A DNA stretch of 64,000 bases from Methylotenera sp. RIFCSPLOWO2_02_FULL_45_14 (GTDB lineage Bacteria; Pseudomonadota; Gammaproteobacteria; Burkholderiales; Methylophilaceae): the NCBI GenBank assembly GCA_001803395.1, contig MHBU01000022.1:1-64000 (forward strand). Reading direction: 5' to 3'. Position numbers and translations under genes: made by a program. Of this stretch, positions 23,983 to 29,623 are shown piece by piece. The notes beneath the pieces are model-generated. The model made no database searches and was not told the DNA's origin. It worked only from the letters and a program-made list of their open reading frames with translations. How positions within the stretch are numbered: the stretch's first letter is position 1; each line of letters opens with the position of its first letter.

Positions 23983-24705
23983 TTGACGGACACAGCCATG
24001 GATAAAACTTTTAGAATTGCCCCTAGTATTCTTTCTGCAAACTTTGCCAAACTTGGTCAAGAGATTGAGGATGTGATTATCTCAGGCGCTGACATTGTGC
24101 ATTTTGACGTGATGGATAACCATTACGTGCCGAACCTGACGATTGGTCCTTTGGTATGTGAAGCCATTCGTGAAACGTCAAAAAAAGTAGGCGCGTTAAT
24201 TGACGTGCATTTAATGGTAAAGCCAGTGGATCGCATTATTCCTGACTTTGCAAAAGCGGGTGCTAACATTATTACATTTCACCCTGAGGCGTCTGAGCAT
24301 ATTGACCGCAGCCTTGCCATGGTGCGTGAGTTAGGCTGTAAATCTGGCTTGGTGTTTAACCCGGCAACATCGCTTAGCTATTTAGATCACGTGATGGATA
24401 AAGTGGATATGATTTTGTTGATGTCAGTGAACCCTGGTTTCGGCGGTCAAAAATTTATTCCAGAAACTTTAGAAAAACTGAAGCTTGCGCGCGCGCGTAT
24501 TGATGCCTATTACGAAAAAACAGGCCGTCAGATTTGGTTAGAAGTTGATGGCGGTGTGAATGTGCAAAACATTGCAGAAATCGCACGTGCGGGTGCAGAT
24601 ACCTTTGTAGCAGGCTCAGCCGTGTTTGGCGCGCCTAAAGACACCGACCCTAACCGTTACAATACCGTGGTGAAATCATTGCGTGATGCCTTAGCAACGG
24701 TTTAA
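23983..24705 (+). CDS. rpe: Ribulose-phosphate 3-epimerase
   Basis: '[17 protein letters not shown]', '[17 protein letters not shown]'. ATG at 23998 is an alternative start. Confidence 0.97.
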
Positions 24706-24708
24706 TCA

Positions 24709-25377
24709 TTGCTAAGTTTTACGATTAAAGCCGTGTTAATTGATTTAGACGGCACTTTGATAGACACTGCGCCAGAAATTGCATGCGCGGTAAACAGCAT
24801 GTTGGCAACAATGAATTTGCCAACGCTGGCTACTGTGCAAATTACGACGTACATTGGTGATGGCGCAACCACGCTGATTAAACGCTGTTTAACCGGGCGC
24901 TTAGATGGTGAGCCAGAACCTGCTTTGTTGGCAACCGCGCAAGTTTTATTTTTTGAGTATTATGCGCAAATCGTGACAGAAAGCCAGCCCTACCCAAACG
25001 TAGTGGCTGACTTGCATGCCATCAAAAATTCGGGCTTGCGTATGGCTTGTGTCACTAATAAACCAAGCAGCTTTACGTTGCCTTTGTTGGCAAAGCATGA
25101 TTTATTGCCGTTTTTTGAATTAGTAGTATCCGGTGACACTTTGCAGAAAAAGAAACCTGAGCCTGATCAAATTTTTTACGTGTGTGAACAATTTGGTGTT
25201 TCAGCGCAAGAAGTTGCCTTGATTGGTGACTCTAAAACCGATATTAGTGCCGCGCGTAGTGCTGGTTGTAAAATGTTTGCTGTACCTTATGGATATAATC
25301 AAGGGCAGCGCATCGAGGCAGCTGAAGTGGATGCCTTGATTGACAACATAGGCAACGTACTGGATTTATTACATTAA
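24709..25377 (+). CDS. gph: Phosphoglycolate phosphatase
   Basis: HAD motif 'VLIDLDGTLIDTAPEIACAVN'; directly after rpe. Confidence 0.94.
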   Translation: MLSFTIKAVLIDLDGTLIDTAPEIACAVNSMLATMNLPTLATVQITTYIGDGATTLIKRCLTGRLDGEPEPALLATAQVLFFEYYAQIVTESQPYPNVVADLHAIKNSGLRMACVTNKPSSFTLPLLAKHDLLPFFELVVSGDTLQKKKPEPDQIFYVCEQFGVSAQEVALIGDSKTDISAARSAGCKMFAVPYGYNQGQRIEAAEVDALIDNIGNVLDLLH

Positions 25378-25418
25378 CTTAAATAGTGACACACACATTT
25401 ATTTTTAAGTACTTCAAC

Positions 25419-25469
25419 ATGAAAATTAGTAACATTAAAACAAACAGTTGGCGATGGTGGCGGGTATAA
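25419..25469 (+). CDS. Candidate trp leader peptide MKISNIKTNSWRWWRV
   Basis: Read directly: ATG AAA ATT AGT AAC ATT AAA ACA AAC AGT TGG CGA TGG TGG CGG GTA TAA; three Trp codons, 50 nt before the trpE ATG. Confidence 0.8.
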   Translation: MKISNIKTNSWRWWRV

Positions 25470-25518
25470 ACCCTGTTGAGTTACACCATTTGCCCATCTT
25501 AATTATTGTGAGAATTTT

Positions 25519-27006
25519 ATGTTTAGTACGATCAATCAAACCGAATTTAATGCCCTAGTGGCGCAGGGTTATAACCGCATCCCATTGGTGCTTGAGACCT
25601 TTGCTGATCTTGATACCCCATTGTCGCTTTACCTCAAACTGGCGAATCAACCGTTTTCTTACTTGCTAGAGTCTGTGCAGGGCGGCGAGCGCTTTGGCCG
25701 CTACTCAATTATCGGCCTGCCTGCAAAAACGCGTATTGTGGCGCATGGCAGGCAAGTACAGGTATTTGAAGGCGATGCAGTAGTTGAAGTTGCTGAAAAT
25801 ACCAATCCTTTGGATTTTGTTAAAAGCTACCAAGCACGTTTTAAAACGCCGCCTTACGAAGGCTTGCCTCGTTTTACGGGCGGCTTAGCCGGTTATTTCG
25901 GTTATGAAACTGTGCGCTATATCGAGAAGCGTTTAGCCAATATAACCAAGGCTGATGAAATTAACACTCCAGATGTGCTGTTGATGGTGTCAGAAGAATT
26001 AGCAGTAGTCGATAATTTGAGCGGCAAGCTTTACTTTATTGTTTATGCCGATACGTCCGAGATTGGTGCTTATGACAATGCCAAAAAACGCTTAAGTGAC
26101 TTAGCCACACAGTTACGTAAAACGGTGACGATTCCTGAATCTGTGGCTACACCAAAAACTGAAGCGATTTCAGAGTTTGGCGAAGAGAACTTTAAAGCGG
26201 CGGTGGAGCGTGCACAACAATATATTTTAGATGGCGACATTATGCAGGTGGTGCTTTCACAGCGCATGTCACAAGCTTTTTCTGCGCCACCGCTTTCGCT
26301 CTATCGTGCCTTGCGCAGCTTGAATCCATCACCTTATATGTTTTATTACGATATGGGTGACCATCACGTGGTGGGCGCTTCACCTGAGATATTAGTCCGC
26401 CTTGAAAACGGCACAGTTACGGCGCGTCCGATTGCCGGTACGCGTCCACGCGGAAAAAACCGTGAGCAAGATCTTGCCTTAGCTGAGGAATTGTTGGCTG
26501 ACCCTAAAGAGCGTGCAGAACACGTACAACTGATGGATTTGGGACGCAATGATGTGGGACGGGTTGCGGTGACTGGCTCGGTTAAAGTCACCGACAATAT
26601 GATGATCGAGCGTTATTCACACGTGATGCACATAGTGAGCAATGTTGAGGGTAAGCTAAAACCTGGCATGGATGCAATCGACGTGATTAAAGCGACCTTT
26701 CCTGCCGGCACCGTTAGTGGTGCACCCAAAGTGCGCGCTATGGAGATAATCGACGAGTTGGAACCTAGCAAGCGTGGTATCTACGCAGGTGCAGTCGGTT
26801 ACTTAGGCTTTAATGGTGACATGGATGTGGCAATTGCCATTAGAACTGGCGTGATTAAAAATAATAGGCTGTACGTGCAGGCAGGCGCTGGCATTGTGGC
26901 CGATTCAATCCCGCAAAGCGAATGGATAGAAACGCAAAACAAGGCGCGTGCGGTGCTACGTGCGGCAGAGTTAGTGCAAGCAGGGCTTGATATTGATGTT
27001 AAGTAG
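25519..27006 (+). CDS. trpE: Anthranilate synthase component I
   Basis: '[22 protein letters not shown]', '[24 protein letters not shown]'. Confidence 0.97.
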
Positions 27007-27016
27007 TGATTCCAAA

Positions 27017-29623
27017 ATGCGATGTATGAATAGTTCTACCAACCTCCCGTTCACCCCGCTAAAATCATTAGCCATCACCTTTGTGCTAGTCGTCTTAGCC
27101 TATTATGTTACGGCTAGGCTTGGGCTTATGGTGCCTTATAAAGAATCTGTGGCAACGCTGATGTGGCTGCCAACAGGCATTGCCGTTGGCGCTATTATGC
27201 GCTGGGGCAATATCAGTTTACCTGCTATTTATGCTGCAGCTTTTTTTGCTGAGTTATCGCTTGGATTGCCTTTTTTTACATCTGTGGCCATTGCATGTAC
27301 TAACACTTTAGCGCCATTTTTAGCGGCTTACCTTTTAAAAAGATCCAACTTTAATCATAGTGTCATCAAGCAAAAGGATATTGTCCTGTTGATTTTAGTC
27401 GCCTTGCTTGGCATGTTGGTTTCAGCCACGGGTGGCGTACTTTCTTTGTATTTAAGCGGTTTAACTACGCCAGAAAATATTACCAGAATTTGGTTTGTTT
27501 GGTGGGTGGGCGATAGTATTGGTGTGCTGCTCGCGCTACCGTTGGTGCTTAATGTAGGCAAAAAACATATGCATGTGCATGCACATCAATACTACCAATT
27601 GTTCGCTTGGTTAATGATGTTTGTCATCGGTGAGATAGTCATTTCATCATTGGTGCCTAGCGTGAATAAACAATTTATGTTATCCATCTTTTTGATTTTA
27701 CCCATGTTGATTTGGGCCTCCATGAACTTTGGTATTGTGGGTGGCTCACTGGTAGTGATTAGTTTATCTAGTATTGCGGTATGGTTTACCGCCCAAGGTT
27801 ACGGCGCTTTTTATAGCGTAAATATGAGCGAAGGTATTTTTTCGTTGTGGATGTTTATGGTGACGTTAGTAGTGACCATGCTATTGATTTCAGTGCTGCA
27901 ATCGGAGCGAAACCTTGCCGAAAAAGCCTTGCGTGAGAATGATAAGAAGCTGCGTGCGGTGATTGATGGGGCACTAGATGCAATAGTGAGCGTGAATGAT
28001 GCCGGCGAGGTGGTTGAGTTTAATCCAGCTGCGGAACGAATTTTTGGCTATAAAAAAGAACAAATTTTAGGCAAGCCAATGTCTGAGATGATTATCCCCG
28101 CCCAATTGCGCAAATTTCATGATGATGGGCATCGGCAATATGTACTCACTGGTGAGAAGCATATGTTTAATCAGCGCATAGAGATCACAGGAATGCGGGC
28201 AGATGGCAGTGAGTTTCCGGTAGAGCTAACGCTGGTTTCATTAAAAGACGAAGGCTTGTCATTGATAACAGGCTTTATGCGAGATATTTCTGTGCAAAAA
28301 AAGGCACAGCAAGAGATCGAAAATTTTGCCTATTATGATGCATTGACTAGCTTGCCAAACAGGCGCTTACTTGTTGATCGATTTCAGCATGCGGTGTTGA
28401 TCAGCCAGCGCACAAAAACTTATTGTGCGCTTATCTTCATTGATTTAGATCATTTTAAGGTATTCAATGAGACAAAAGGTCACGATGTGGGTGACCAGGT
28501 GTTGATAGAAGCTGCCAATAGAATTCAACAAGTGATTCGGGCTGGCGACACCGTTGCGCGACTCAGTGGTGATGAATTTATTGTGATAATTGAAAATCTA
28601 GATATGCAACAAAATCTGGCGTACCAGCAGGCAAGCGAAGTTACACAAAAATTATTGGCAGAACTCAATAAAAGCTATTACTTTGATTTATTTGAGTTTA
28701 ATGCCAGTGCCAGTCTGGGTGTGACCTTGTTTAATGATGATAAGCTCAGTTTTGAAGAGCATTTAAGACATGCCGATATTGCCATGCATCAATCAAAAGT
28801 GGCTGGACGTAATACTTATCATTTTTATGATCAAATCACACAAGAGCGCGTAGAGAAAATATTTGCTATAGAAACTGCACTGTCGGTAGCCGTTAAAAAT
28901 AAGGAGTTTCATCTTCACTACCAAAGCATTGTGGATAGTAATAAAACTGTCATTGCAGCAGAAGTGTTATTAAGGTGGACGCATCCAGTGATGGGCAATA
29001 TCGATCCCACAGAATTTATATCAATCGCTGAAAAAAATAACCAAATTATCAAAATTGGGCGCTGGGTGTTACAGCAGGCTTGTCAGCAACTTAAAGCTTG
29101 GGAAAATCACCCTAACTTAAGTAAAATTAAACTTTCGGTAAATATCAGCGCAAAACAGTTTTTATACATTAATTTTATTCAAGAATTGCGTGAAATGCTG
29201 GCAGCCACTGGCATTAACCCGGATTTACTTAAACTCGAATTGACCGAAACCGCTGTGATTGAAAACATTGACGATGTTGTCAATAAAATCAATGTGTTAA
29301 AGAAAATGGGGGTGAGGATATCGCTAGATGATTTTGGCATAGGGCATTCATCGTTGGTTTACCTAAAAAAACTGCCTGTTACTCAAATTAAAATAGATCA
29401 ATCATTTGTGCACGATGTACTGACCGATTCTAACGATGCCGCCATTATACAAATGGTGCTTGCTGTGGGTAAGACCATTCACTGTGATATTGTGGCAGAA
29501 GGGGTGGAGCAGTTAGAGCAGTTTGAGCAATTAAAATTATTCGGTTGCGATTATTTTCAAGGTTATTATTTCAGCAAACCAGTTGCGGTTGCTAGCTTTG
29601 AGCAATTGGTAGAGCGCACGTAA
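27017..29623 (+). CDS. MASE1-PAS-GGDEF-EAL cyclic-di-GMP signalling protein
   Basis: N-terminal multi-TM MASE1-like region, PAS ('VVEFNPAAERIFGYKKEQILG'), GGDEF-type site 'LSGDEF', EAL-type domain ('AAEVLLRWTHP', 'SLDDFGIGHSSLVYL', 'IVAEGVE'). Confidence 0.9.
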   Translation: MRCMNSSTNLPFTPLKSLAITFVLVVLAYYVTARLGLMVPYKESVATLMWLPTGIAVGAIMRWGNISLPAIYAAAFFAELSLGLPFFTSVAIACTNTLAPFLAAYLLKRSNFNHSVIKQKDIVLLILVALLGMLVSATGGVLSLYLSGLTTPENITRIWFVWWVGDSIGVLLALPLVLNVGKKHMHVHAHQYYQLFAWLMMFVIGEIVISSLVPSVNKQFMLSIFLILPMLIWASMNFGIVGGSLVVISLSSIAVWFTAQGYGAFYSVNMSEGIFSLWMFMVTLVVTMLLISVLQSERNLAEKALRENDKKLRAVIDGALDAIVSVNDAGEVVEFNPAAERIFGYKKEQILGKPMSEMIIPAQLRKFHDDGHRQYVLTGEKHMFNQRIEITGMRADGSEFPVELTLVSLKDEGLSLITGFMRDISVQKKAQQEIENFAYYDALTSLPNRRLLVDRFQHAVLISQRTKTYCALIFIDLDHFKVFNETKGHDVGDQVLIEAANRIQQVIRAGDTVARLSGDEFIVIIENLDMQQNLAYQQASEVTQKLLAELNKSYYFDLFEFNASASLGVTLFNDDKLSFEEHLRHADIAMHQSKVAGRNTYHFYDQITQERVEKIFAIETALSVAVKNKEFHLHYQSIVDSNKTVIAAEVLLRWTHPVMGNIDPTEFISIAEKNNQIIKIGRWVLQQACQQLKAWENHPNLSKIKLSVNISAKQFLYINFIQELREMLAATGINPDLLKLELTETAVIENIDDVVNKINVLKKMGVRISLDDFGIGHSSLVYLKKLPVTQIKIDQSFVHDVLTDSNDAAIIQMVLAVGKTIHCDIVAEGVEQLEQFEQLKLFGCDYFQGYYFSKPVAVASFEQLVERT

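Follow-up and report, generated by a model that had tools for sequence, protein, structure and literature searches.

Leader peptides that carry tryptophan (Trp) codons and upstream open reading frames (uORFs) that sequester the Shine-Dalgarno sequence of the next gene are both known kinds of regulatory element. The rtpLP leader of anti-TRAP in Bacillus subtilis is a Trp-codon leader peptide whose stop codon adjoins the start of its target, with ribosome release as the point of control. To our knowledge, trp gene control is poorly described for most betaproteobacteria and many gammaproteobacteria, groups in which TrpR is absent or may be absent. In Pseudomonas putida, trpE and trpGDC are said to be under attenuation, in work by Olekhnovich and Gussin from 2001 that is cited in PMC8297930. 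A Trp-codon uORF leads trpE in the Sinorhizobium meliloti trpLE(G) attenuator (PMC7298713), and ermCL is the leader of an ermC-type translational attenuator (PMC10219788). Here we examine the gap between gph and trpE in the first 64,000 nucleotides (hereafter the window) of contig MHBU01000022.1 from Methylotenera sp. RIFCSPLOWO2_02_FULL_45_14, a member of the Methylophilaceae (Burkholderiales). Comparative and thermodynamic analyses lead us to propose, with reasonable confidence, that this gap is best explained as a translational attenuator sensing charged tRNA-Trp, an arrangement that probably switches trpE on at Trp shortage.

The gap measures 141 bp, as a first-pass annotation of the window had reported along with the identities of the two flanking genes, which NCBIfam searches confirm. 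Also as described there, it contains a short open reading frame (ORF) running from an ATG at 25419 to a TAA ending at 25469, with Trp codons starting at 25449, 25455 and 25458. The leader ATG lies 41 nt beyond the gph stop (25377), and 49 nt separate the leader end from the trpE ATG (25519). The features on which the proposal turns are:

25419-25469, forward strand: leader ORF encoding MKISNIKTNSWRWWRV, 16 codons plus TAA, conserved in relatives
25449-25460, forward strand: sensor codons TGG-CGA-TGG-TGG (Trp-Arg-Trp-Trp), the arginine codon being the rare CGA
25508-25512, forward strand: GTGAG, the probable trpE Shine-Dalgarno sequence, read from the sequence
25519-27006, forward strand: trpE, the putatively regulated gene, named anthranilate synthase component I by NCBIfam (TIGR00564, 565.6 bits, cut-off 517.7)

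Across the six frames of the window, the leader is the sole ORF with W.WW, WW.W or WWW in its last eight residues, and the genome contains 7 TGGCGNTGGTGG sites in total against 3 for the reversed pattern.

To gauge conservation, we gathered the regions upstream of trpE from 58 Methylophilaceae, 100 other Burkholderiales and 49 other Gammaproteobacteria genomes, together with 80 named relatives, the nearest of which are Methylotenera metagenome-assembled genomes with 95-97% TrpE identity. One fixed rule defined a Trp-rich leader ORF, and expected counts came from dinucleotide shuffles. Such a leader precedes trpE in 46/58 Methylophilaceae (0.3 expected), 48/99 regions from other Burkholderiales (0.7 expected) and 63/79 regions from named relatives (0.7 expected), and a looser rule finds one in about 50 of the 58 Methylophilaceae genomes. 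Leaders in this family mostly end in SWRWWR, SWRWWH or SWRxSWR, and endings outside it include WRWRR, WPWR and WRRWR. Among the other Gammaproteobacteria the core is reduced to one or two R-W pairs near the stop; an in-frame CGA-TGG near the stop occurs in 21/49 (0.4 expected). Both the Trp codons and the reading frame, on whose conservation the leader interpretation had been staked beforehand, are thus kept in relatives. The shortness of the ORF and its weak Shine-Dalgarno sequence could suggest a chance reading frame, with trpE regulated in some other way, an explanation to which we give almost no credence, since it is refuted by conservation far above the less than one leader expected in each taxonomic set. 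Judged by comparative sequence analysis, the Trp-rich ORF before trpE is a genuine conserved Trp leader peptide.

The Methylophilaceae without a leader are mainly eight streamlined genomes, each 1.3 Mb in size and drawn from two genera, and these absences look like secondary losses. In four such leaderless genomes (G013, G032, G044 and G054) the trpE match contains one TAA, which may stem from where the alignment ends or mark a true disruption. At other loci in the family, such as L036, L045 and L046, the leader ATG overlaps or almost abuts the stop of the upstream gene (e.g. GCATGATG), which suggests that leaders of this sort may be translated through coupling to gph.

Minimum free energy (MFE) folds of most relatives contain an outer helix joining the leader start to the trpE Shine-Dalgarno sequence and AUG, and this helix encloses a hairpin formed by the Trp codons. 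The complementarity between leader start and trpE start is kept though the sequence diverges. Column covariation, sought with MAFFT and RNAalifold, gave no usable signal because the register of the helix shifts from one genome to the next, and we therefore compared own with permuted duplex energies, setting each genome's leader arm against its own trpE start and against the starts of all other genomes. Mean energies for own versus permuted pairs were -18.7 versus -12.3 +/- 0.5 kcal/mol in 46 Methylophilaceae, -21.9 versus -15.9 +/- 0.5 kcal/mol in 48 other Burkholderiales, -15.6 versus -10.4 +/- 0.4 kcal/mol in 63 named relatives and -23.6 versus -15.7 +/- 0.85 kcal/mol in 19 other Gammaproteobacteria. 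Own pairing is therefore stronger by 5-8 kcal/mol on average, and no permutation, of 5000 for each of the first three sets, reached the observed mean (z of about -13, -12 and -9 for Methylophilaceae, other Burkholderiales and other Gammaproteobacteria). Permutation among relatives is a conservative test, as close relatives pair well with one another; against dinucleotide-shuffled leaders, the mean z was -2.1 to -2.5. Control regions shifted into gph gave no own-versus-permuted difference at offsets 300, 450 and 750, and one of 1.1 kcal/mol (2.7 standard deviations) at offset 600, small beside 5. Where a recognisable Shine-Dalgarno core exists, it lies within the helix in 26/27, 16/18 and 31/37 genomes of three genome sets. 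The extreme case is L069, where leader and trpE start form an unbroken run of 24 pairs. At L069 (G072), L090 and L254 the helix is made of a simple repeated unit (AACCACAGAGACACAGAGGCACAGAG / CTCTGTGCCTCTGTGTCTCTGTGGT), with CGCAAAGGCGCAAAG-type repeats at L254, as though the switch had been built by recruiting an inverted-repeat element.

This conserved pairing, which joins the opening codons of the leader to the trpE Shine-Dalgarno sequence and AUG, lies outside the competing stems that the first-pass annotation had listed in proposing a transcription-attenuation leader. The words of those stems are present in the window at the positions it gave; none of the three closest relatives (L166-L168) retains AACAG/CTGTT, and each of the other two, GGGT/ACCC and ATGGTG/CACCAT, is missing or changed in some members of this trio. 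Competing local stems, together with a short leader whose Trp codons come close to its end, would suit classic transcription attenuation of the Escherichia coli trpL type, in which a ribosome stalled on those codons tips the RNA towards an antiterminator and away from an intrinsic terminator ahead of trpE. However, the stems are not conserved, the window has no terminator between leader and trpE (the absence of a U-tract, already remarked upon, is confirmed), and terminator-like sites in this interval occur in 5/46 Methylophilaceae against 8.4 expected from shuffles. The conserved helix, moreover, adjoins the trpE start and is followed by no U-tract in most outgroups. In some other Burkholderiales (e.g. 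L086, L100 and L155), a stem on the Trp codons does lead into a T-rich stretch; such sites number 16 where 9.2 are expected, a modest excess that leads us to allow for possible transcriptional control in part of that group. We consider transcription attenuation an unlikely explanation here. What survives of the earlier proposal is the conserved Trp leader peptide of trpE; the transcriptional part is not supported, the family having no terminator excess, and on the choice between transcriptional and translational control, which had been left open, comparative pairing favours the latter.

Under translational attenuation, the 16-codon leader ORF, whose conservation is consistent with its being read, would be translated from the nascent mRNA, with its Trp codons coming near the end. 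In a ribosome-free leader, the first codons would act as an anti-Shine-Dalgarno arm that folds onto the trpE Shine-Dalgarno sequence and AUG and blocks trpE, a step to which comparative pairing points across beta- and gammaproteobacteria, and weakly in the window's subclade. When Trp-tRNA is scarce, a ribosome would stall at the Trp codons a few codons past the arm, cover the arm and break the inner Trp-codon hairpin, permitting trpE initiation; when Trp is plentiful, the ribosome would reach the stop codon and leave, the helix would close and trpE would be off. Thermodynamic modelling agrees with these stalling and release steps: a ribosome placed on the first Trp codon makes the trpE start easier to open, by a mean of 4.0 kcal/mol in Methylophilaceae and 2.6 kcal/mol in other Burkholderiales, versus 1.4 and 0.5 kcal/mol for one at the stop codon. 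The genome (about 98% complete) has no match to the TrpR family, Pfam PF01371, which we also count in favour of translational attenuation, as we do the apparent loss of the leader from the eight streamlined genomes. Given no terminator excess in the family, no TrpR and these footprint gains, translational attenuation appears to fit best. All the pairing evidence is also compatible with mixed control, in which the same helix would block trpE initiation and the untranslated transcript, being accessible to Rho, would then be ended by it, placing the signal at the mRNA level. None of the results requires Rho, and we regard this addition as improbable.

In the window's own RNA, the predicted pairing arms are:

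25416-25427, forward strand: arm A1 (AACATGAAAATT), the region of the leader start, which complements that of the trpE start and is extended outward by GTACT at 25409-25413 (MFE folds and covariation-type tests)
25513-25523, forward strand: arm D1 (AATTTTATGTT), the trpE AUG and spacer, pairing with A1 and extended by AGTAC at 25525-25529 (MFE folds)
25443-25449, forward strand: arm A2 (AACAGTT; AATAGTT in L166-L168), the codons preceding the first Trp codon, pairing weakly with D2
25501-25507, forward strand: arm D2 (AATTATT), directly 5' of the trpE Shine-Dalgarno sequence
25450-25457, forward strand: arm B (GGCGATGG), the Trp-codon stretch, pairing with C within the outer helix (MFE folds)
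25486-25494, forward strand: arm C (CCATTTGCC), pairing with B (MFE folds)

The predicted outer helix joins AACAU(G)AAAAUU to AAUUUUAUGUU, is extended by GUACU/AGUAC and covers the trpE AUG, the stretch from Shine-Dalgarno sequence to AUG having a mean unpaired probability of 0.29. A2:D2 amounts to only 5 bp in the window. The complement of B is enriched in Methylophilaceae (11 versus 3.0 expected) and not in other Burkholderiales (6 versus 5.4).

Several observations weigh against translational attenuation as we propose it. Leader and trpE start pair least strongly in the subclade to which the window belongs, where the duplex reaches just -7.6 to -7.9 kcal/mol, no better than shuffled sequences, and across the 20-genome Methylotenera WRWWR subclade the own-versus-permuted test gives only p = 0.03 overall (p = 0.025 for A1:D1 and p = 0.012 for A2:D2). 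For the window, the gain in opening given by the footprint model is only about 2 kcal/mol. About half of the sampled Burkholderiales have no detected leader, a set that nevertheless keeps some leader/start pairing signal (z -4.2), and a good Shine-Dalgarno core of their own is present in only 12/49 Methylophilaceae leaders. With so weak a duplex and such marginal subclade tests, we infer the mechanism for the window mainly from its relatives.

The sensor codons show a further constraint. The arginine codon in W-R-W is CGA in 34/34 Methylophilaceae, 40/40 named and 21/25 other Burkholderiales leaders, and CGA makes up 3.9% of arginine codons in Methylophilaceae trpE genes. Among Gammaproteobacteria, CGA-TGG outnumbers other CGN-TGG pairs by 21 to 3, with CGA at 6% of TrpE arginine codons. 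In some leaders (e.g. WRGSWR), CGA stands elsewhere or does not precede Trp. The tRNA-Arg anticodons detected in the genome are ACG, CCG, TCT and CCT; there is no TCG, so CGA must be read by the ACG (inosine) tRNA. We hypothesize that CGA sharpens Trp sensing in bacteria. More tentatively, and as a possibility that we hold with some doubt, the leaders may belong to a widespread beta- and gammaproteobacterial trpE translational attenuator with a CGA-UGG sensor, in which a poorly wobble-decoded CGA in the P site, with the Trp codon awaited in the A site, would sharpen the stall enough for one or two Trp codons to suffice. Two other reasons for keeping CGA were considered and rejected: formation of an internal ATG (CG-ATG-G), as the ORFs so created share neither frame nor end point, and pairing with arm C, as the enrichment is confined to Methylophilaceae.

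Conservation extending beyond Trp, to other amino acids and even codons (WRWWR; CGA), would also be expected of an arrest peptide, a W-R-W-W-R nascent chain that, in the manner of TnaC, senses from within the exit tunnel either free Trp or a different ligand, as opposed to the supply of Trp-tRNA. But the leader is down to one R-W pair in many Gammaproteobacteria and its Trp spacing is variable (WRGSWR, WRRSWR), so codon supply fits better than a peptide fold, and for trpE an arrest triggered by high Trp would act in the wrong direction. We judge an arrest peptide to be very improbable.

Two genes directly precede the leader:

23983-24705: rpe, preceding gph (NCBIfam TIGR01163, 295.7 bits, cut-off 212.6)
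24709-25377, forward strand: gph (phosphoglycolate phosphatase), in the ORF list and directly upstream of the leader (NCBIfam NF009695, 260.5 bits, cut-off 225)

On the other side, trpE is split from trpGD: a MASE/PAS-GGDEF-EAL protein (26987-29623 in the window) follows trpE, and trpG and trpD lie on another contig (G000:C18, L060). At L028, from the same family, trpE, trpG and trpD adjoin. No second Trp-rich leader was seen in the genome sequence ahead of trpG or trpGD.

Rfam searches returned no family match for the window (E-value mode) or for 20 relatives (gathering). Rfam has no entry for the combination found at trpE, for its spread or for the CGA constraint, and a literature search confined to openly available papers turned up no report of them. 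The main risk to novelty is P. putida, a gammaproteobacterium whose trpE is likewise said to be controlled by attenuation, a likeness that we draw from the citation in PMC8297930. Start-site pairing without a terminator explains why terminator-based searches would miss the leader. Like enterobacterial trpL (Rfam Trp_leader, E. coli), the locus has a short ORF with Trp codons before trpE and presumably relies on stalling governed by charged tRNA-Trp; unlike trpL, it has no intrinsic terminator or U-tract, a conserved pairing would block the trpE start, and the leader is often a single R-W or W-R-W with a conserved CGA. The S. meliloti trpLE(G) attenuator shares the Trp-codon uORF ahead of trpE and differs in the same respect, with start-site pairing and no terminator here. 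In rtpLP, too, a Trp-codon leader peptide governs translation of the next gene, whereas here the anti-Shine-Dalgarno arm would lie in the first leader codons, and both the target gene and the phylum differ. A mechanical parallel is with ermC-type attenuators, in which, as proposed here, a ribosome stalled on the uORF rearranges the RNA and exposes a sequestered Shine-Dalgarno sequence; the signal there is an antibiotic, and here it is presumably the supply of Trp-tRNA.
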